DNA from: a virus
IMG/VR virus record: IMGVR_UViG_3300036826_000378
Coordinates: 1-58,061 of that record
Length of the DNA: 58,061 nucleotides
Reading direction: 5' to 3' (one strand)
Below, one piece after another: positions 4,789-48,920 of the stretch. Each line of letters opens with the position of its first letter. The first letter of the stretch is position 1. The notes below the pieces were generated by a model. It did not search any database, was not told the DNA's origin, and worked only from the letters and a program-made list of their open reading frames with translations. A program made the position numbers and the translations under genes.

Positions 4789-7128
4789 TCAGCCCTCCAC
4801 TTCGAGCTGCTCCAGCAGCTCATCGACTTCGGCTCCACTCATCAGCACCTCGCGGGACTTCGAGCCCTGGTAGGGCCCGATCACCCGGTTGCGCTCCAGC
4901 ATGTCGATGATCCGACCGGCCCGCGAGTAGCCGACGTTGAACTTGCGCTGAACCCCTGAGACGGAAGCGGCGCCTTCGGCGGCCACCGCACGCGCCGCAC
5001 GCGCGAACAGCGGGTCCAGCTTGCGCTCTCCGTCCGGACCCAGCTCGGTGGCGGGCAGGAAGCCCTCCAGAACCGCCTCGTGGTAGGACGGCTCGCCCTG
5101 GCCCTTCCAGAAGTTGACCAGCGCCTCGATCTCCGGATCCGAGACGAAAGCACCCTGGATGCGGGTGGGCTTGCCCGCGTCGACCGGCAGGTAGAGCATG
5201 TCGCCGCGGCCCAGCAGCTTCTCGGCGCCGACCGAGTCCAGGATCACCCGGCTGTCCACCTGCGAGCCGACCGCGAACGCGATCCGGCTCGGGATGTTGG
5301 CCTTGATGAGGCCGGTGATGATATCGGTCGACGGGCGCTGAGTGGCGATCACGAGGTGGAGGCCAACCGCGCGCGCGAGCTGCGCGATCCGGCAGACCAG
5401 TTCCTCGATCTCGCCGGCCGCCACCATCATCAGGTCGGCCAGTTCGTCGATCACGATCACGACGTGGGGCAGCTCGCGAGCCCGCCGGACCTTCGCGCGC
5501 TCGTTGTAGACCGCGATGTTGCGGACGCCCTCGTGGTGCAGCAGCTTGTACCGCCGCTCCATCTCGGCGACGGCCCAGCGCAACGCGCCGGCCGCCTGAG
5601 CGGGTTCCACGATGACTGGAACGACGAGGTGCGGCAGATCGGTGTACTGCTGGAGCTCGACACGCTTCGGGTCGATCAGCACCATGCGGAGCTGGGCCGG
5701 GGTGAGCTGGAGCAGCAGGGAGCAGATCATTGCGTTGATCGCCACGCTCTTGCCCTGCCCGGTCGCGCCCGCGATCAGCAGGTGTGGCATCCGCGTCAGG
5801 TCGGCCGCGACACATGCGCCCGCGACGTCGTTCCCGATGGCCAACGGCAGGTAGTGGTTCCCACGCTGGAAGGCCGGAGAGGCAACGACCTCTCCGAGCG
5901 TGACAAGGGTGGCGGTCTTGTTGGGCACCTCGATACCGATAGCCTGCTTGCCCGGGATCGGCACCTCCAGGCGAATCGGCGAGGCCGCCAGCGCCAGCGA
6001 GAGATCGTTCTGAAGACGCACGATCTTGCCGACCTGGACTCCCGCGGCCGGCTGCACCTCGTACTGCGTGACCGCGGGGCCGGCGTTGACTCCCACGACC
6101 TTGCCGGCAGCCCCGAAGGTCTTCAGCGTCTCTTCGATGATCCGGACGTTCCGCTTGATCTCGTCCTGCATCCGGTTGCTCTTGGCGACGGCCGGCGTCA
6201 GGAGGGAGCCGGCATCCGGCCGGTCCCACTCGACATCCTCTGAGCCGTCGTCCCACTCGCCCACGATCGTTTCGATCGGAGTGTCGTCGTTGGCCTCACC
6301 CACCTCGGCCAGGTGCCGCTCGAAGGCGTGGTCTTCCGGCATCGGCGGGACGTTCTCGGCGTCGTCACCGGACTCCAAGTCCAGGGGAGTCTGCTCGACA
6401 GGCCCGGCAGGCCCGGCAGCCGGCGGGGCAGGCTGGGCCGGCTCTGGAGCCGGACGTGGAGTTGGCGCCGGAGCCGGCTGGCGCTGGGGGCGCAGGTTGT
6501 TCAGGCGCTCGCGCTCGCCCCACACCTTCTGGCCCGCCTCCACGACAGCCAGGAGGGGCTTGGCTAGGTCGCGCAGGCCCAGGAACGCCGCCAGCCCGAT
6601 GACGACCACCAGAAGCAGCGCCGTGATTCCGGGGCTGATGTGATCGACCAGGGGGCGCGTGAACCAGAAAGCGATCCAGCCGCCGAGACGCGGCGCTGGG
6701 ATGCTGAGCAGGCCCAACAGGGCGAACAGGACGATCGTCGCGCAGAGCACCTGCCAACTTGTCAGATTGATCCGCGACCACAGCAGCGCTACGCCGACGA
6801 AGATCATGCCGGGGAGCGCGATGAGCCACCCGATACCGAACAGGCCACGAGCGAGGTAACTCAGGTCGCGGAGGGCCGCGTAGTCCGACGGGAAGATGCT
6901 GACGATCGAGACGATGCCGACCAGCGCCAGCAGGACGCCGAGGATGCCGCGGGTCTGCTCGGGGGAGAGCCGGCCCAGCTCGGTGACGGCGTCTTCGATG
7001 ACGTCTCCGATCGCGCTCCCAATGCCGAGGAAGTCGAAGTGGTGGCCCCCCGCGCGCGAGGGCGCACGCCGTACCGTTGTGGTGCGCCGGGCCGGTTGCC
7101 GGCGCGAGGTTCGCCGCCGGGTGCTCAT
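4789..7128 (-). CDS. ftsK: FtsK/SpoIIIE-type DNA translocase, full length
   Basis: 779 residues from ATG 7128, preceded by GGAGGGAG and overlapping a leader peptide. After a basic N-terminus there are about four transmembrane segments (residues about 60-190), then a proline-rich linker. The FtsK motor follows, with Walker A GATGQGKS (about 455-463) and Walker B VIVIDELAD (about 556-563). The last about 65 residues are a winged-helix gamma-like domain (FNVGYSRAGRIIDMLERNRVIGP). The family pumps double-stranded DNA by ATP hydrolysis at the membrane. Phage relatives are usually soluble motors, so a complete membrane-anchored copy is unusual. It could act in host takeover, genome partition or DNA transport; the host source is not settled. 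Confidence 0.92.
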   Translation of the reverse strand: MSTRRRTSRRQPARRTTTVRRAPSRAGGHHFDFLGIGSAIGDVIEDAVTELGRLSPEQTRGILGVLLALVGIVSIVSIFPSDYAALRDLSYLARGLFGIGWLIALPGMIFVGVALLWSRINLTSWQVLCATIVLFALLGLLSIPAPRLGGWIAFWFTRPLVDHISPGITALLLVVVIGLAAFLGLRDLAKPLLAVVEAGQKVWGERERLNNLRPQRQPAPAPTPRPAPEPAQPAPPAAGPAGPVEQTPLDLESGDDAENVPPMPEDHAFERHLAEVGEANDDTPIETIVGEWDDGSEDVEWDRPDAGSLLTPAVAKSNRMQDEIKRNVRIIEETLKTFGAAGKVVGVNAGPAVTQYEVQPAAGVQVGKIVRLQNDLSLALAASPIRLEVPIPGKQAIGIEVPNKTATLVTLGEVVASPAFQRGNHYLPLAIGNDVAGACVAADLTRMPHLLIAGATGQGKSVAINAMICSLLLQLTPAQLRMVLIDPKRVELQQYTDLPHLVVPVIVEPAQAAGALRWAVAEMERRYKLLHHEGVRNIAVYNERAKVRRARELPHVVIVIDELADLMMVAAGEIEELVCRIAQLARAVGLHLVIATQRPSTDIITGLIKANIPSRIAFAVGSQVDSRVILDSVGAEKLLGRGDMLYLPVDAGKPTRIQGAFVSDPEIEALVNFWKGQGEPSYHEAVLEGFLPATELGPDGERKLDPLFARAARAVAAEGAASVSGVQRKFNVGYSRAGRIIDMLERNRVIGPYQGSKSREVLMSGAEVDELLEQLEVEG

Positions 7129-7247
7129 GTGGGATCTCCCTCCTCGGTGGTGGCTTCCATGTTGCCGCCCGGGACGAGACCGTGGGAGCGCGCGACCCAG
7201 CAGAGCTGGGCCCGAGCGGGAACCGCGGCCCTCGTGGTGGCGTTCAT
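7125..7247 (-). CDS. 40-residue leader peptide of ftsK
   Basis: ATG 7247 lies 6 bases after the TATAAT box and begins ATGAACGCCACC. The peptide (MNATTRAAVPARAQLCW...) ends at TGA 7127-7125, which overlaps the ftsK start codon (ATGA). The overlap suggests that leaderless initiation here delivers ribosomes to ftsK by coupling. Confidence 0.65.
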   Translation of the reverse strand: MNATTRAAVPARAQLCWVARSHGLVPGGNMEATTEEGDPT

Positions 7248-7272
7248 GAGGCAATTATAACTGTAGCGCTGC
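7248..7272 (-). promoter_or_regulatory. leaderless promoter of the ftsK operon
   Basis: Minus strand: GCAGCGCTACAGT, then TATAAT (7259-7254), 6 bases, ATGAAC. It is arranged back-to-back with the plus-strand promoter at 7301-7325, so 7248-7325 is the divergent control region of both early arms. Confidence 0.75.
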
Positions 7273-11964: not shown

Positions 11965-12219
11965 ATGAACCGCCATCGCATTGACGATCGCACGTTGACC
12001 GTGGAGCCGCTGACCCAGGAGCTGCGTGCCTATGGCTTGCGTGGCCGGCCGATTCCGAGCGGGACTCCGGCTCGCCACGCGGTGGTCCAGCGGAGCGGCC
12101 AAGGCCGAGTGCTCTCTATCCGAGGCATCTCGATCGAGGCCGCTGACGCCGTGATGACCGCACGGGTCTGCGCCTCGAACGACGAGGGGCGCTACGTGCG
12201 GTCGGAGAGCCGATCGTGA
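11965..12219 (+). CDS. small hypothetical protein, leaderless start
   Basis: 84 residues from ATG 11965. Mixed alpha/beta composition, basic at both ends. Its TGA overlaps the GTG of the GHKL-ATPase gene, so the two are co-translated. No family recognised. Confidence 0.7.
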   Translation: MNRHRIDDRTLTVEPLTQELRAYGLRGRPIPSGTPARHAVVQRSGQGRVLSIRGISIEAADAVMTARVCASNDEGRYVRSESRS

Positions 12220-13700
12220 CGACGAGCGCGAACTGGTTCGCCGTCGACAAGGACGGCCTGGCCAAGCTGCTGCGACGCCGGGGTCCCGGGTTCGCGGTCT
12301 TGGAGCTGCTCCAGAACTCCTGGGACGAGGACGGTGTCACCCGAGTCACCGTCACCCTGGAGCCGATCCTGGGGCGCAAGGGCGTGGCGCGTCTCGTTGT
12401 GGAAGACGACGCACCGGATGGCTTCGCTAACCTGACCCACGCCTACACGCTGTATGCCGAGAGCGCCAAGAAGGCGCAGCCGACGAAGCGCGGTCGCTTC
12501 AACCTCGGAGAGAAGCTGGTCATCGCGCTCTGCGAAGAGGTGACGATCACCAGCACGCGCGGCGGCGTCTCGTTCACCGATCTCGGTCGGGTCGCGACCC
12601 GCCGGAAGCGTGAGCGTGGCAGCCGATTCGAGGCGGTCATTCGCTTCACGCGCTTGGACGTCGAGCGAGCGACGACGGCGGTCTTCGCGGTCCTGCCGCC
12701 GCAGGGAATCGGGACGACCTTCAACGGCCGGCTCCTGGAGCCGCGGACGCCAGTGCTCGCCTTCGAGGCCACTCTGCCGACCGAGCTGGCGGACGAAGAG
12801 GGCTACCTGAAGTCCCGCACCCGGCCGACGACGATCGAGCTGTACGAGGTCCAGTCGGGTGAGGTCGCGACCCTGTACGAGATGGGCATCCCCGTCGTGG
12901 AGCTGCCCGGGGACCGCTGGCACGTCAACATCGACCAGAAGGTTCCGCTGAACGCCGACCGTGACAACGTGACTCCGGCGTACCTGCGCACCGTCAGGAC
13001 GTTCGTCGTGAACCACACGTACGAGCTGCTGACGCGCGAGGACGCCACTGCGACCTGGGCACGGGAGGCGACCGCGGACCCGCGCATCGAGCCGGCCGCG
13101 GTCGTTCATGCGTTGGACGTGATGTTCGGGAAGCGGCGAGTCAGTTTCGACCCGAACGACCTGGAGGCCAACCACCGTGCGGTCTCGGAGGGCTACACGA
13201 TCGTCCATGGCGGCAGCCTGAGCGGCGGACAGTGGGAGCAGGTGAAGCGGTCCGAGGCAATCCGGCCGGCGGGCCGCCTGTTTCCGACACCGCGCCCGGA
13301 GTCGTCACCAGACGGTGAACCGCCGGTGCCCGTGGAGGAGTGGACGCCGCGGATGCGCCTGATCGCCGAGTACGCGCAGATGGTCGGCGGCGTACTACTG
13401 GGCTTCACGCCGAGCGTCGAGTTCTACCGGACGGCGAACAGCGAGTTCTCCGCCTGGTACGGAAGTCGCACAATCGGCTTCTGCATGAAGCGGCTGCGGC
13501 ACTGGTTCGTTCGAGACGAGCTCCCCGACCAGGAAGAGGTAGACCGCCTGCTGATCCACGAGTACGGCCACGAGGGCGGCCCCAACCATCTGAGCCACGA
13601 GTACCACGAGAACCTGTGCCGGCTTGGGGCCCGGATGCGCCGAGTGCTTGCCACGCTGGAGAGCTGGGCGAGCTGGATACCCGAAGGAGAGGCTCGATGA
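12216..13700 (+). CDS. GHKL-ATPase-like protein with C-terminal HEXXH motif
   Basis: 494 residues from GTG 12216. The N-terminal third has the Bergerat ATP-fold signatures: an N-box E30-N34-D37E38 (LELLQNSWDE), a degenerate DxGxG box at residues 64-70 (DDAPDGF) and a glycine lid at 92-100 (RGRFNLGEK). These resemble Hsp90, MutL and topoisomerase VI B. A middle transducer-like region follows. Residues 446-465 read LLIHEYGHEG then HLSHEYHENL: HEYGH (448-452) fits the zinc-protease HEXXH motif, with later histidines and glutamates as third ligand. I know of no standard family with this pairing. ATP-gated proteolysis or an inactive metal site are both possible. Confidence 0.75.
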   Translation: MTTSANWFAVDKDGLAKLLRRRGPGFAVLELLQNSWDEDGVTRVTVTLEPILGRKGVARLVVEDDAPDGFANLTHAYTLYAESAKKAQPTKRGRFNLGEKLVIALCEEVTITSTRGGVSFTDLGRVATRRKRERGSRFEAVIRFTRLDVERATTAVFAVLPPQGIGTTFNGRLLEPRTPVLAFEATLPTELADEEGYLKSRTRPTTIELYEVQSGEVATLYEMGIPVVELPGDRWHVNIDQKVPLNADRDNVTPAYLRTVRTFVVNHTYELLTREDATATWAREATADPRIEPAAVVHALDVMFGKRRVSFDPNDLEANHRAVSEGYTIVHGGSLSGGQWEQVKRSEAIRPAGRLFPTPRPESSPDGEPPVPVEEWTPRMRLIAEYAQMVGGVLLGFTPSVEFYRTANSEFSAWYGSRTIGFCMKRLRHWFVRDELPDQEEVDRLLIHEYGHEGGPNHLSHEYHENLCRLGARMRRVLATLESWASWIPEGEAR

Positions 13701-13948
13701 GCGAGCGTAGAACCATTACCCGGATCCGACAACCGAACGACATCGGCATCCCCTACGCCGAGGTGGACGTGGACACGGGCGCCCAGGTGTGTCCCATCTG
13801 CGGGAGGCACCGCGGCGCCGCGTACGACCGCGACGGAGAGCAGATCGAGGGCACGTACGACGTGCACTACAGCCAAGAGCACACACGCACGCTGCCCGAC
13901 GGCCGCGTGGAGGAGGACTGGCCAGCGCCGGTCGGAAGGAGGAGATAG
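13697..13948 (+). CDS. small zinc-knuckle protein
   Basis: 83 residues from ATG 13697, overlapping the preceding stop. CPICGRH near residue 33 with later histidines (VHYSQEH) can bind one zinc. Translationally coupled to the GHKL-HEXXH gene, so a shared task is plausible but unproven. Confidence 0.7.
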   Translation: MSERRTITRIRQPNDIGIPYAEVDVDTGAQVCPICGRHRGAAYDRDGEQIEGTYDVHYSQEHTRTLPDGRVEEDWPAPVGRRR

Positions 13949-15793: not shown

Positions 15794-16080
15794 CTGAGTG
15801 GGAATGGACACCTGAGCAGAGGCGTGCGCTCGCCCAGCTTGGCCGCGCCTTCGCGGCGGCGCAGAAGGCGGGCTTGGCCATCTGTGGCATGGATCGCGAG
15901 CTGATCGCGTACAAGGCCCGCGAACTTGACGCCGCTGAGCGTCAGGCGCGACGGGATGGCATGGAGAAGTACGGCGTGCCGGGGGGTCTGTACGACGCTC
16001 AGGCTGAGCTGAACAACGTCCGTGGCCACAGCGACACCATCAATCACCACGGGGTTTACCGTGACTCGGGCGGTTGGTGA
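15790..16080 (+). CDS. small hypothetical protein
   Basis: 96 residues from GTG 15790 (GTGA overlap). Mostly helical (EQRRALAQLGRAFAAAQKAG), with a glycine-rich end. No recognised domain. The next promoter begins about 20 bases after its stop. Confidence 0.68.
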   Translation: MTEWEWTPEQRRALAQLGRAFAAAQKAGLAICGMDRELIAYKARELDAAERQARRDGMEKYGVPGGLYDAQAELNNVRGHSDTINHHGVYRDSGGW

Positions 16081-16098
16081 CGACCTTGACTCCAGTGG

Positions 16099-16120
16099 CG
16101 CACGCGCCTACAATTGGAGC
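16099..16120 (+). promoter_or_regulatory. leaderless promoter, GGCGCA class
   Basis: GGCGCACGCGCC precedes TACAAT (16109-16114), then 6 bases and ATGAACGCCACC. The clearest example of its class. Confidence 0.8.
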
Positions 16121-16786
16121 ATGAACGCCACCGTCTTCGGTACACGCGAATCGCTGGGCCCGTATGGCTTCCCGCGCATGGTGGAAGTCGTGCCCGAGGG
16201 CAAGCTGGGAGCGGCGGAGGTCGAGCACTTTGAGGTCTCCGAGAGCGCCGCTCGCTTCACTGCCCTGAAGGGCGGTCGGAACTATGTACAGGACGGCAGG
16301 TACGCGAAGCTGCGCGTTGGCGGCGAACTCGTGATGAGCGACACTCGTTACGAACGGCTGTCGAACAGCGCAGTCGTCTACGCCGCCCACGGCCAGGCGC
16401 TGATCGCCGGCCTCGGGCTCGGCATGATCCTCCACGCCATCCTGGCGAAGGAGGCTGTCGAGCACGTCACGGTCGTCGAGCAGAGCCAGGACGTCATCGA
16501 CCTGATCGGCCCGACGCTCGCGCAGCACGCTGGCCGGCTGACGGTCACGCAGGGCGACATCTTCGAATGGAGGCCGGAGCGCGGCACGAAGTACGACTGC
16601 ATCTACTTCGACATCTGGGCCGAGATCAGCACCGATGCGCTGCCGGAGATGGCGAAGCTGCATCAGGCGTTCAAGGGCTTCAAGGCGCCTGGTGCCTGGA
16701 TGCAGAGCTGGGAGCGCGAGTCGCTCAAGGCGGACAAGCGTCGCGAGGAGCGCGAGCGCCGGCCGTTTGCAGGCTACCGGTGGTGA
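16121..16786 (+). CDS. spermidine-synthase-like SAM-dependent methyltransferase
   Basis: 221 residues from ATG 16121, chosen because the leaderless promoter ends 6 bases before it (an in-frame ATG at 16022 would translate the promoter). The Rossmann glycine loop GLGLGMILHA is near residue 96, an acidic ribose-binding strand VTVVEQSQDVI follows, then YDCIYFDIWAE as motif IV. This is the spermine/spermidine-synthase-like branch of class I methyltransferases. The polyamine-binding part is not evident, so the substrate is unknown. It may modify a small molecule or protein. Confidence 0.82.
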   Translation: MNATVFGTRESLGPYGFPRMVEVVPEGKLGAAEVEHFEVSESAARFTALKGGRNYVQDGRYAKLRVGGELVMSDTRYERLSNSAVVYAAHGQALIAGLGLGMILHAILAKEAVEHVTVVEQSQDVIDLIGPTLAQHAGRLTVTQGDIFEWRPERGTKYDCIYFDIWAEISTDALPEMAKLHQAFKGFKAPGAWMQSWERESLKADKRREERERRPFAGYRW

Positions 16787-32221: not shown

Positions 32222-33163
32222 ATGCCCTGGGCACCAGACGTTCACATCGATCAGGCCCTGACAACGCTGAGCATCTCGTACAAGAACGAGTCCCTCATCT
32301 ACGACAGGGTCCTGCCGGCGATCCCCGTGGACAAGCGCTCGGACCTGTACTTCATCTACGGCCGCGAGCAGTTCAGGAAGCTGGACGACCTCGTTCGTCC
32401 GGGTTCCGTGAGCCCCGAGTGGGAGCGCACCATCTCGCGTGACAGCTACAACTGCGAGCGTCACGCGCAGAAGCAGCTCATCACGGACGCGGAGCGCCGC
32501 CTCAGCGACAACCCGCTCCAGCCGGACGCCGACACGACGGAGTTCCTGACCGACAGGGTCATGAACCAGCGCGAGTTCAACACGATCTCCCTGGTGACCG
32601 ACTCGACCCAGGTCCCGAACAACCTGACGCTGTCGGGCACTTCCCAGTGGAGCGACTACGTCAACAGCGCGCCGCTCACCAACATCAAGAACGGTCGCCT
32701 CATCGCACGGTTCGGTGCTCTGCGTGAGGCGAACATGATGACGATGTCACTGGACGTGGCACTTGGATTGGCCGATCACCCCAGCGTGAAAGACCTCATC
32801 AAGTACACCAGTCCCGGGAACATCAGCAGCAGCGGGCTGCCGAACGTCATCCGCGGCCTCCAGGTCAACGTGGCCGGCGCGTACATCGACACCAGCAACC
32901 CGGGTGCGACGCCGAGCTTCGCAACGGTGTGGGGCAAGAACGCCTTGATCCACTACACCAACCCGTCGCCCGGCGGGCTGAAGACGATCACCTTCGGTGC
33001 ATCGTTCGAAGCCCCGGACGACACGACCGGGGTGCGCGGCTTCAGCATGATGAAGTGGCGGGACGAGGCGCGGCACGGCGACTACGTCGAGTGCGCCAAC
33101 ACGTACACGCTCAAGCTGATCGCGCCGACCGCGGCGTACCTCTTCCTCGCGGCTGTCGCCTGA
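32222..33163 (+). CDS. major capsid protein
   Basis: 313 residues from ATG 32222. The pattern IYDRVLPAIPVDKRSDLYF near residue 26, YNCERHAQKQLITD, and the ending SPTAAYLF-type strand (IAPTAAYLFLAAVA) follow the HK97-fold capsid proteins that pair with Mu gpI proteases. It forms the icosahedral shell. A strong terminator directly follows, as expected for a highly expressed gene. Confidence 0.88.
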   Translation: MPWAPDVHIDQALTTLSISYKNESLIYDRVLPAIPVDKRSDLYFIYGREQFRKLDDLVRPGSVSPEWERTISRDSYNCERHAQKQLITDAERRLSDNPLQPDADTTEFLTDRVMNQREFNTISLVTDSTQVPNNLTLSGTSQWSDYVNSAPLTNIKNGRLIARFGALREANMMTMSLDVALGLADHPSVKDLIKYTSPGNISSSGLPNVIRGLQVNVAGAYIDTSNPGATPSFATVWGKNALIHYTNPSPGGLKTITFGASFEAPDDTTGVRGFSMMKWRDEARHGDYVECANTYTLKLIAPTAAYLFLAAVA

Positions 33164-45887: not shown

Positions 45888-48800
45888 GTGGCTGACGTCG
45901 CGCGCCTCCTGCTGCTCCTGACCGGCAACGCCGAGGGTGCCGTCGCGGCCCTGGGTGAAACCGATGCCGCCCTGAAGGAGGTGGGTCGGAGCGCGAACGA
46001 GAGCAACGGGTTCCTCGGCGGCCTCGCCAACGGCTTCAAAGCGCTGGTGGTGGGCACGGTCGCCGTTGGTGCCGTGATTGCCGCCGTCAGCACGAAGTTC
46101 GCCGCTGACTTTCAGCAGGGGACGACACGCCTCATCACCAACGCGGGCGAGACGCGCGATGCCGTCGAGAACATCATCAAGCCAGCGCTGCTGGATATGG
46201 CCGTTACTACCGGCTATTCGACTGAGCAGCTCGTGGAAGGCTTCCGTGTGGTCAGCTCGGCTGGGTACAAGGCAGCCGAGGGCGTCAAGGTACTCACGGT
46301 CTCAGCCGAAGGTGCTCGGGCGGAACAGGCGGACCTCGGTGTTGTCCTGAACGCCGTCACCAGCATCCTCAACGCTTACAACCTCAAAGCTGACGACGCC
46401 GGCATGGTCATGAACACCCTGACCCTGGCCATGCAGAGCGGCAAGCTCACCCTGCAAGACCTCTCCAATGCCCTGGGTACCGTCATCCCCGCGGCGGCGA
46501 ATGCCAACATCAATATCCAGGAACTGACCTCAGCGCTTGCCACCATGGCCAATGAGGGCATCAAGCCGGCGAACGCAGCCACTTATCTGCGGTTCACCAT
46601 CCTGAACCTTCAGAACGCCACACCAAAGGCACGCAAGGAGCTGGAGGCGATCGGGCTGTCTGCTGATTCGCTCAGCCGGACGCTCACCACGCATGGCCTC
46701 GGTGCCGCCCTGGAAGTGCTCGATCAGGCCATCGCCAAGAAGTTCCCTTCCAGTGCCGCTGTGTTCAGGGCGGAGATGGCGAAGGTCAAGGCCGGAACGG
46801 AAGACATGGACACCGCCATGGTGAACATGACCAAGAACAGTCCGGAGGCGACTGCCGCGCTGTCCAACATCACAGGTGGCATCCGTGGCGCGCAGGGTGC
46901 CCTGGCGCTTGGTGGCGCCCACCTGTCCGGGTTCATCTCCATGACAAAGGACGTGACCGACAAGGTGCGCTTGGCCGGTCACGAGATCATCGGATGGCGC
47001 GAGATCCAGGACAACATGAACTTCCAGCTCTCGCGCGCCAAGGAAGCGCTGGAGCTGCTGGCGATCTCGCTCGGGACCAAGCTCTTGCCGTACGCCACCA
47101 TGGCGTTCAAGGTCTTCGCTGACTGGGCCCCCAGTCTAGTCGCCCTGCCTGGCCAGCTTCAAGCGATGGCCACTGTGGTCGCACAGGCGGTCGGTCCCTG
47201 GGCGGCGCTTGTACTGCACATGACGCAGTCGCTGGGGCCTTTCGGCTGGTTCCTGGGGCCGGGAGTAGGGGTCGCTGCCAACCTCCGGGGCGTCCGCGAC
47301 ATGGTCAAGTTGCTCTCGGACGAAATCAGCGTTGGTGCGCCCAAGTGGCTCATCTTCGAAGACGCTCTCCAGCAGATCGGCTTCAGTGCCGATCGCGCCG
47401 GAGAGATCGGGTCACAGTTCCGCTCGGCGTGGGCGGCGGTTCACCCTCTCCTCAGCACGCTGGCCACTGTGATTCGCGGGCTCGACTCCGACATTCGGAT
47501 CGGCGTGCCCTTCTGGATGGCGCTCGAAAACACGCTGATGCGACTGGGAATGGGCGGCAAGCAGGCCATCGCCTGGGGCTACGAACTGCGCCAAATCTGG
47601 GAGGCTATCCAGCGAGCGGGCCGGCAGTTGTGGGAAATGCTGGGGCACGCCCTCGGCCCAGCGCTGACACAGTTTGCGCGCGATGCCGGCCCGCTCTGGA
47701 AGCAACTGCGCGAGACCTGGGAAAGCTTGAAGCCGATCCTGGCCGCCGTGGGCGTCGTGCTGGGCATCATCGCTGCTGTCGGCATGGCGTTGCTGGTCGG
47801 CGTGGTGAAGGGGCTCATCATGGCCCTGGGCGTGGTGCTGCCGGATGCAGTCCACTTCCTGATTACGGCCCTGATGCTCGCTGCTGCGATTATCAAGCTG
47901 GCAGCCGACATCATCGTCGGTTCCTGGCGGCTCGCCATGGCGATCTTCAAGGCGCTGATCTTCGGCGACTGGAAGGGCCTGTGGGAAACCGCGAAGGACG
48001 TTCTCGGCAAGATTGCTGGAGACATCGGGAACATCGTCGGCGACCTGATGGACCTGATCGGCACGATCGTCCACACGGGCGTGATGGCTACCTACTGGTT
48101 CTTCTGGGGGCTGGTGTCCGGGGTCGTCGGCTTCTTCCAGTGGCTGTTCCAGCAGCTCGTCGGCGGGTCGATTGTGCCGGATCTTGTCAACGCCATCATC
48201 CAGTGGATCCTCCGCCTCGACTCGATGGTCATCGCGATCATCCGCCTTCTCGTAAACACCGCCATCGCCGTGTTCATGTACCTCTGGAACGCTGGCGTCT
48301 CTGGAGCGCAGGCGTTGGCGAATGGCGTGTTCGGGGCCTTGCAGTGGATGGCGAACGCGGCAGGTTCGGCTGTGGACTGGCTGAGACAGAACGTCCTCGG
48401 CCGCTTGTCGAGCCTGATCGGCGACGCCATCAGTTATGCCTCTTCAGTGGGCAGCGGGATCGCGAACGGGATCGCGAACGGCATCCGCAACGGGGCCTCC
48501 GTGATCATCAACGCGGCGCGCAGCGCGGCCCAGTCGGCACTGAACGCGGCCAAGAACCTGCTGGGGATCACTTCGCCGTCGACCGTCATGGCGCGGGAGG
48601 TGGGCCTGCCGACCGCCCAAGGCGTGGCCTTGGGTATCGACCAAGGGGCCTCGCAGGCGCAGAACGCCCTCGGGCGTCTCGTGCGTGGCCTGTCACAGGG
48701 AGTCACCGGCGCCGCGCTGGCGACCTCGGCCGACCTGACCGCCAAGCTCTCCAGCTCGATCTCGAACACGGCCGCGGCGTTGACAACCCCGGCGGCCGCA

Positions 48801-48920
48801 GGCGGTACCGACAACGCCGACATCCTCGACCGGCTTGACCGAACGAACCAGCTCCTCCTGGCAATCGCGCGAGGCAAGTCCAATGTGAATGGCTTCGCAG
48901 CCGCACTGAGGCAAGGATGA
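45888..48920 (+). CDS. tail tape measure protein (TP901 type)
   Basis: 1010 residues from GTG 45888. After a short helix comes a hydrophobic stretch. Then the TP901-type core (about residues 70-260: TRLITNAGETRDAVENIIKP, VTTGYSTEQLVEGFRVVSSAG, LSNALGTVIPAAANANINI). Several membrane-like segments lie at about 625-800. The C-terminal helices end in a Gln/Ala-rich tail. By the usual length ruler of about 0.15 nm per residue the tail would be near 150 nm, which is an estimate only. Confidence 0.9.
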   Translation: MADVARLLLLLTGNAEGAVAALGETDAALKEVGRSANESNGFLGGLANGFKALVVGTVAVGAVIAAVSTKFAADFQQGTTRLITNAGETRDAVENIIKPALLDMAVTTGYSTEQLVEGFRVVSSAGYKAAEGVKVLTVSAEGARAEQADLGVVLNAVTSILNAYNLKADDAGMVMNTLTLAMQSGKLTLQDLSNALGTVIPAAANANINIQELTSALATMANEGIKPANAATYLRFTILNLQNATPKARKELEAIGLSADSLSRTLTTHGLGAALEVLDQAIAKKFPSSAAVFRAEMAKVKAGTEDMDTAMVNMTKNSPEATAALSNITGGIRGAQGALALGGAHLSGFISMTKDVTDKVRLAGHEIIGWREIQDNMNFQLSRAKEALELLAISLGTKLLPYATMAFKVFADWAPSLVALPGQLQAMATVVAQAVGPWAALVLHMTQSLGPFGWFLGPGVGVAANLRGVRDMVKLLSDEISVGAPKWLIFEDALQQIGFSADRAGEIGSQFRSAWAAVHPLLSTLATVIRGLDSDIRIGVPFWMALENTLMRLGMGGKQAIAWGYELRQIWEAIQRAGRQLWEMLGHALGPALTQFARDAGPLWKQLRETWESLKPILAAVGVVLGIIAAVGMALLVGVVKGLIMALGVVLPDAVHFLITALMLAAAIIKLAADIIVGSWRLAMAIFKALIFGDWKGLWETAKDVLGKIAGDIGNIVGDLMDLIGTIVHTGVMATYWFFWGLVSGVVGFFQWLFQQLVGGSIVPDLVNAIIQWILRLDSMVIAIIRLLVNTAIAVFMYLWNAGVSGAQALANGVFGALQWMANAAGSAVDWLRQNVLGRLSSLIGDAISYASSVGSGIANGIANGIRNGASVIINAARSAAQSALNAAKNLLGITSPSTVMAREVGLPTAQGVALGIDQGASQAQNALGRLVRGLSQGVTGAALATSADLTAKLSSSISNTAAALTTPAAAGGTDNADILDRLDRTNQLLLAIARGKSNVNGFAAALRQG

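Follow-up and report, generated by a model that had tools for sequence, protein, structure and literature searches.

A conserved fusion of a GHKL-type ATPase and a predicted zinc metallopeptidase domain in environmental phages

In the presence of ATP, clamps of the GHKL type form dimers and close, and HExxH sites completed by a further histidine bind zinc and cleave peptide bonds. HExxH domains can also be non-proteolytic, however, and this counts against the protease reading of such a motif. To our knowledge, bacterial ATP-dependent proteolysis is otherwise a matter of AAA+ machines. The minigluzincins abylysin and jannalysin (selecase) are archaeal stand-alone zymogens, in which the third metal ligand is a glutamate. 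In the rIIA proteins, which act against RexAB, a GHKL domain is joined to a C-terminal domain that varies (PMC7824862, PMC11879866). Some zincins of jumbo phages, the SprT-like and ArdC-like ones, have been proposed to cleave host proteins (PMC7824862).

The window analysed here is a virus record of 58,061 bases that is judged, from PHROG profiles, to represent all or much of a tailed phage (Table 1). The motor region of its FtsK/SpoIIIE-like protein is about 50% identical to proteins from records named after Listeria, Enterococcus and human-gut phages. One of its genes had been described from the sequence alone as a GHKL ATPase fused to an HEXXH metallopeptidase-like end, and this description is backed by conservation, by profile matches and by structure models. 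The open reading frame, the residue numbers and the motifs listed in that sequence-only reading (E30, N34, D37, DDAPDG, the lid and HEYGH at 448-452) were all recovered. Its claim of a coupling to small genes on both sides stands as far as the letters go: both 4-base overlaps exist in the window, GTGA at 12216-12219, with the stop of the upstream frame, and ATGA at 13697-13700. The coupling says little about function, however, because neighbour families other than GHKL occur near at most 8 of 104 relatives. The upstream frame has no Pfam match, the downstream one has only a weak zinc-ribbon match (0.048), and both were passed over by a crude coding-potential caller.

Table 1. Features of the window and of related families; positions are those of the window unless preceded by a locus label (L016 and so on)
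Feature	Position	Strand	Evidence
FtsK/SpoIIIE-like protein	4789-7254	minus	PHROG profile
Upstream small ORF, 84 aa	11965..12219	+	Sequence; 4-base overlap with fusion start
GHKL-zincin fusion gene, 494 aa, GTG start	12216..13700	+	Sequence; homologues; AF2 pLDDT 92.8, pTM 0.86
GHKL (Hsp90/MORC/MutL-type) ATP-binding domain, about aa 8-180	12237..12755	+	HATPase_c_3; Foldseek TRAP1 (full chain)
N-box helix, aa 24-37	12285..12326	+	E30, N34, D37 invariant
DDxPxG motif (DDAPDG), aa 64-69	12405..12422	+	D64, G69 invariant
ATP lid, aa 85-100 (K85, RGRFNLGEK)	12468..12515	+	Conservation
Transducer/middle domain, about aa 181-290	12756..13085	+	Secondary structure of the model and fold match
Catalytic-arginine loop QKVPLNADR, aa 241-249	12936..12962	+	Q241, R249 invariant; resembles Hsp90 PLNVSRE
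Small alpha/beta linker module, about aa 291-372	13086..13331	+	Common to family II (hhalign, 385 columns)
Minigluzincin/WLM/YgjP-like metallopeptidase domain, aa 373-494	13332..13697	+	AF2, Foldseek, Pfam in relatives
Predicted zinc site HEYGHEGGPNH, aa 448-458	13557..13589	+	H448, E449, H452, H458 invariant
Downstream small ORF, 83 aa, contains CPICGRH	13697..13948	+	Sequence; 4-base overlap with fusion stop
Major head protein	32222-33163		PHROG profile
Tape-measure protein	45888-48920		PHROG profile
Family II	L016:3534-4877, L017:825-2129, L030:4070-5383, L039:8637-9977, L089:5041-6378 (minus); also L132-L211
Family III	L018:8319-9743, L026:7765-9207, L023:7241-8677, L093:3906-5297

About 175 relatives of the fusion protein (family I) were found, 130 on viral (IMG/VR) contigs, many of them large (up to 435 kb), and 45 in bacterial and archaeal GTDB genomes; 80 of the 130 IMG/VR contigs were taken in as sequences. 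Besides these, there are plasmid relatives, three at 46-49% identity and three more distant, and a single phage relative from an annotated collection, encoded by a 485-kb metagenomic phage (46% identity). One plasmid copy is that of Methylibium petroleiphilum (WP_011831646.1). Each of 41 whole virus records, the window included, contains one full-length copy without internal stop codon. Conservation was assessed in a set of 104 sequences that share less than 90% identity with one another and 21-51% with the query. Both halves of the protein are under purifying selection: synonymous change far exceeds non-synonymous change in either half of close pairs, and the ratio of non-synonymous to synonymous change amounts to roughly 0.08-0.26 over whole genes of more diverged pairs. 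For two pairs the synonymous divergence differs sharply from one half to the other (0.72 against 0.14 for L018 and L023, 0.085 against 0.37 for L121 and L123), which suggests recombination near the domain border.

The N-terminal half displays the N-box (E..N..D), the DxGxG-type box and the glycine-rich lid of the GHKL superfamily, the core of the lid reading KRGRFNLGEK (aa 91-100). Invariant residues in this half include E30, N34, D37, D64, G69, G93, G98, K100, G135, E222, Q241 and R249 in the 104 sequences; as the scans for relatives were patterned on GHKL motifs only, this invariance was partly selected for, while that of the end domain was not. The Pfam profile HATPase_c_3 matches 85 of 101 members, with a best value of 3e-8. 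The likeness to Hsp90, TRAP1 and HtpG comprises the GHKL pocket, the transducer and a PLNxxR loop, whereas the protease-like C-terminal domain sets the fusion protein apart from them. The loop in question, QKVPLNADRD (aa 241-250), is absent from the sequence-only reading; it contains PLNADRD, with an invariant R249, where Hsp90 has PLNxSRE. The similar loop of E. coli HtpG reads DLPLNVSREILQ, with PLNVSRE at 331, and the arginine of that loop is what we take to be the ATP-contacting catalytic residue of Hsp90. The alignment with the HtpG sequence is confined to aa 22-195 (E 3.2e-4), and PF00183, the Pfam HSP90 model of the middle and C-terminal domains, has no match anywhere in the genome.

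In the end domain, only H448, E449, H452 and H458 are invariant among the 104 sequences, and an alignment of the end domain alone agrees. The motif is not a product of chance: of 129 relatives with a length of 440 aa or more, 127 keep HExxH, and the other two have unrelated sequence at the end, an apparent truncation or frameshift. Because H458 never varies in the non-redundant set, it is read as the third ligand of a predicted HExxHx5H site, a ligand overlooked in the sequence-only reading; in one MAFFT alignment it appears as nearly invariant, an effect of the variable distance from H452 to the third histidine. In the AlphaFold2 model, HExxH lies within helix 439-453 and H458 in the loop that follows. 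The protein has what a zincin has, namely HExxH on a helix, a conserved general base and a third ligand, as judged from conservation and from the model. Neither of the two situations that could speak against a metal site, a motif buried in a helix with no third ligand or histidines that differ among relatives, was encountered.

The same spacing of the site occurs in E. coli YgjP (HELAHLKEKEH) and in the fission-yeast WLM protease 5jig (HELTHNVHGEH). The likeness to YgjP, WLM (Wss1) and SPRTN consists of HExxHx5H and a subsequent helix with an aromatic residue; the difference is that the domain is here fused to a GHKL ATPase, and that the accessory domains of SPRTN and Wss1 were not recognised. 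The Pfam families WLM and YgjP match 18 (best 1.9e-5) and 14 (best 3.7e-6) of 96 relatives, respectively, though weakly, and the C-terminal domain of the window protein itself has no Pfam match. With profiles, the end domain matches myroilysin (8.5e-5) and WLM 5jig (0.016, aligned gap-free through the metal site) among PDB entries, and hhalign gives 8.4e-6 with E. coli YgjP. A metzincin assignment was considered, as HEYGHEGGPNH formally fits HExxHxxGxxH and myroilysin is among the matches, but the glycine position is not conserved, and the variable spacing to the third histidine and the minigluzincin fold matches also disfavour it. A single-sequence PDB search returned only weak and meaningless beta-lactamase matches, and phmmer with the end domain only a weak Lon match.

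The full chain was modelled confidently with AlphaFold2 from 96 sequences (scores in Table 1). In a Foldseek comparison with the PDB, it matches the mitochondrial Hsp90 TRAP1 (4iyn) first, with an E-value of 3.8e-13, followed by topoisomerase II, MORC, MutL and GyrB. The end domain alone (123 aa) was modelled with a pLDDT of 93.4 and has the topology helix-strand-strand-strand-helix(HExxH)-helix. Its top PDB folds are the minigluzincins abylysin and jannalysin/selecase (2.4e-3 to 2e-2), which have a glutamate as third ligand where the phage fusion has a histidine. PprI, the SPRTN-type 6mdx (an entry entitled 'Mechanism of protease dependent DPC repair') and M1 aminopeptidases come later. These E-values are modest, the best being 2.4e-3, yet the top matches to the modelled domain are zincins, as the motif predicts. 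The architecture and the predicted metal site are well supported.

The GHKL-zincin fusion has kin with a similar build. In a second family of phage GHKL proteins, family II, the chain has some 440 aa and ends in HExxHx4DGx3H; strong matches to this family are found in 7 of the 41 family I contigs, one of the seven with EExxH. An hhalign comparison of the two family profiles extends over 385 columns and all three modules (E 7e-13), and by this comparison families I and II are homologous from end to end, with a common three-part architecture. HExxH occurs near the end in 22 of 80 fetched family II relatives, and shorter ones of about 360 aa keep the ATPase and have no zincin. Therefore, the protease is a detachable module. 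In L145 and L146, a family II protein has EEVSH in place of HExxH, possibly a protease-dead version, and these contigs also carry an intact family I protein (L050, L051). In family III, a lid motif (GQFGSGNKHA) precedes the N-box (REFVSNAID) and EExxH stands at the end; this order of motifs suggests a circularly permuted GHKL ATPase.

No conserved operon partner emerged from ORF clustering: any one family lies near 8 of the 104 loci at most, save cross-matching GHKL profiles near nine. The nearest larger neighbours on the same strand are heterogeneous as well (Pfam on 87 neighbours), and no anti-defence association was found. Since the neighbourhoods are not conserved, the fusion protein probably acts alone and looks like a self-contained accessory enzyme. 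The window has a methyltransferase at 16022-16786 (phrog_15480, 3.6e-30). In L018, L023, L043, L048 and L111, homologues of it are likewise encoded downstream of the fusion gene, making six of 104 loci. A Toprim-looking protein with a GDHDPSG-like motif, a possible relative of topoisomerase VI-A or Mini-A, is encoded near six relatives (L018:4214-5185, L023, L026, L036, L075 and L116). A topoisomerase-VI-like pairing was rejected, this neighbour occurring near six loci only and without Pfam support.

In a maximum-likelihood tree, phage copies are interleaved with cell and plasmid copies, with 13 changes of label, at least nine of which are forced by well-supported branches. A deep cellular clade of longer proteins, mainly cyanobacterial and alphaproteobacterial, stands apart, and because it sits in such genomes rather than in phages, a purely phage role does not account for every member.

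Among phage proteins, the T4 rIIA-like ones come close in that a GHKL protein has a distinct C-terminal part, and rIIA-like proteins are among the viral fold matches. The rIIA-like protein of phage OLIVR1 gives a weak tblastn match limited to the GHKL region (E 0.01), and no PHROG rIIA model matches the window protein above noise. Moreover, the matched rIIA models span about 620-970 aa, and the C-terminal domain of rIIA is highly variable, whereas the zincin is fixed here, and no rIIB-like partner was recognised for the fusion gene. Some relatives resemble TmtA, presumably the Tiamat protein, in the GHKL domain. The TmtA proteins differ in being far larger (models of 1302-1655 positions), with similarity confined to the ATPase. 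For the window protein, no family among the PADLOC models of known anti-phage defence was found (0 families).

Our preference goes, with moderate confidence, to a clamp of the Hsp90 type that is driven by ATP and carries its own zinc protease, a stand-alone accessory that would likely destroy or remodel a specific host protein. Two subunits would dimerise via their GHKL domains upon ATP binding, and the dimer would close on a client protein or a protein-DNA complex. Closure could place the client at the metalloprotease, or unmask the latter, which would then cleave it, and ATP hydrolysis would reset the clamp. The gene would be a stand-alone accessory one, moved between unrelated phages and plasmids, in keeping with the lack of a conserved partner gene and with the interleaved phage and cell or plasmid copies. 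Its likeliest use would be the destruction or remodelling of a specific host protein, for example a defence component, in host takeover or counter-defence. Proteolysis, its coupling to ATP and the target are what we infer, and a counter-defence role in particular is suggested by analogy with rIIA and the jumbo-phage zincins.

The main rival is crosslink repair in the style of SPRTN and Wss1, in which a GHKL clamp would surround DNA while the end domain strips stuck or guarding proteins from it. This is in line with an end domain closest to WLM and YgjP in sequence and to the SPRTN-type 6mdx in fold, with the DNA-acting MORC, MutL and topoisomerases among the fold matches, and with some neighbours that are DNA-metabolism genes such as DNA polymerase A, SRAP, SNF2 or dUTPase. 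However, the neighbours are heterogeneous, each kind occurring once or twice, the protein has no recognised DNA-binding domain, and the best full-chain fold match is a protein chaperone, TRAP1; we regard this alternative as unlikely.

Rather doubtful, too, is an effector of defence or superinfection exclusion, an ATPase-controlled protease borne by phages, plasmids and some bacteria and directed against rival phages or the infected host. In two relatives, PADLOC models of TmtA give weak matches to the GHKL part (1.5e-5 and 3.2e-5), and there are plasmid copies near a SIR2-HerA pair (Rhodovastum) and adjoining DisA-type and CHAT genes (Picosynechococcus). The TmtA match concerns the ATPase domain only and is absent for the window protein, however, and most detected copies reside on phage contigs in scattered contexts.

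Finally, a chaperone with a non-cleaving, structural or regulatory zinc- or client-binding domain, that is, a phage Hsp90-like foldase or an rIIA-like regulator, would account for the short family II members with an ATPase and no zincin, for the two family II members with EExxH and for family III, which keeps EExxH. In these cases a clamp evidently does without the classic protease site. For family I this reading is improbable, since E449, the general base, never varies any more than the ligands do, and a site of purely structural purpose would have no use for it.

The clamp with a built-in protease also admits a bolder formulation, which we put forward tentatively: families I and II, together with the permuted family III, may form a superfamily spread by phages and be the first case of an ATP-dependent protease in which an Hsp90-type clamp takes the place of an AAA+ unfoldase, ATP-driven closure of the GHKL dimer feeding a specific host protein to the minigluzincin.

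Each half of the protein is of a known kind, and in the sources searched their conserved combination seems to have gone undescribed. The sequence-only remark that no standard family contains both domains holds for Pfam, NCBIfam, PHROGs and PADLOC, none of which has the fusion family, and for the literature searched, where no description was found in a search that is thin for subscription journals; PMC5512222 and PMC2292703 do not mention the fusion. Environmental phages carry the family widely, but these family libraries lack it. Its recurrence in more than 100 environmental phages and in some bacterial genomes, with the predicted catalytic residues kept, suggests a new ATP-controlled protease of phages. 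Phage GHKL proteins such as rIIA are still without a clear mechanism, and the invariant residues offer direct point mutants. If the proposal is true, an Hsp90-type ATPase and a metalloprotease in a single chain would constitute a different way to couple ATP to cleavage.
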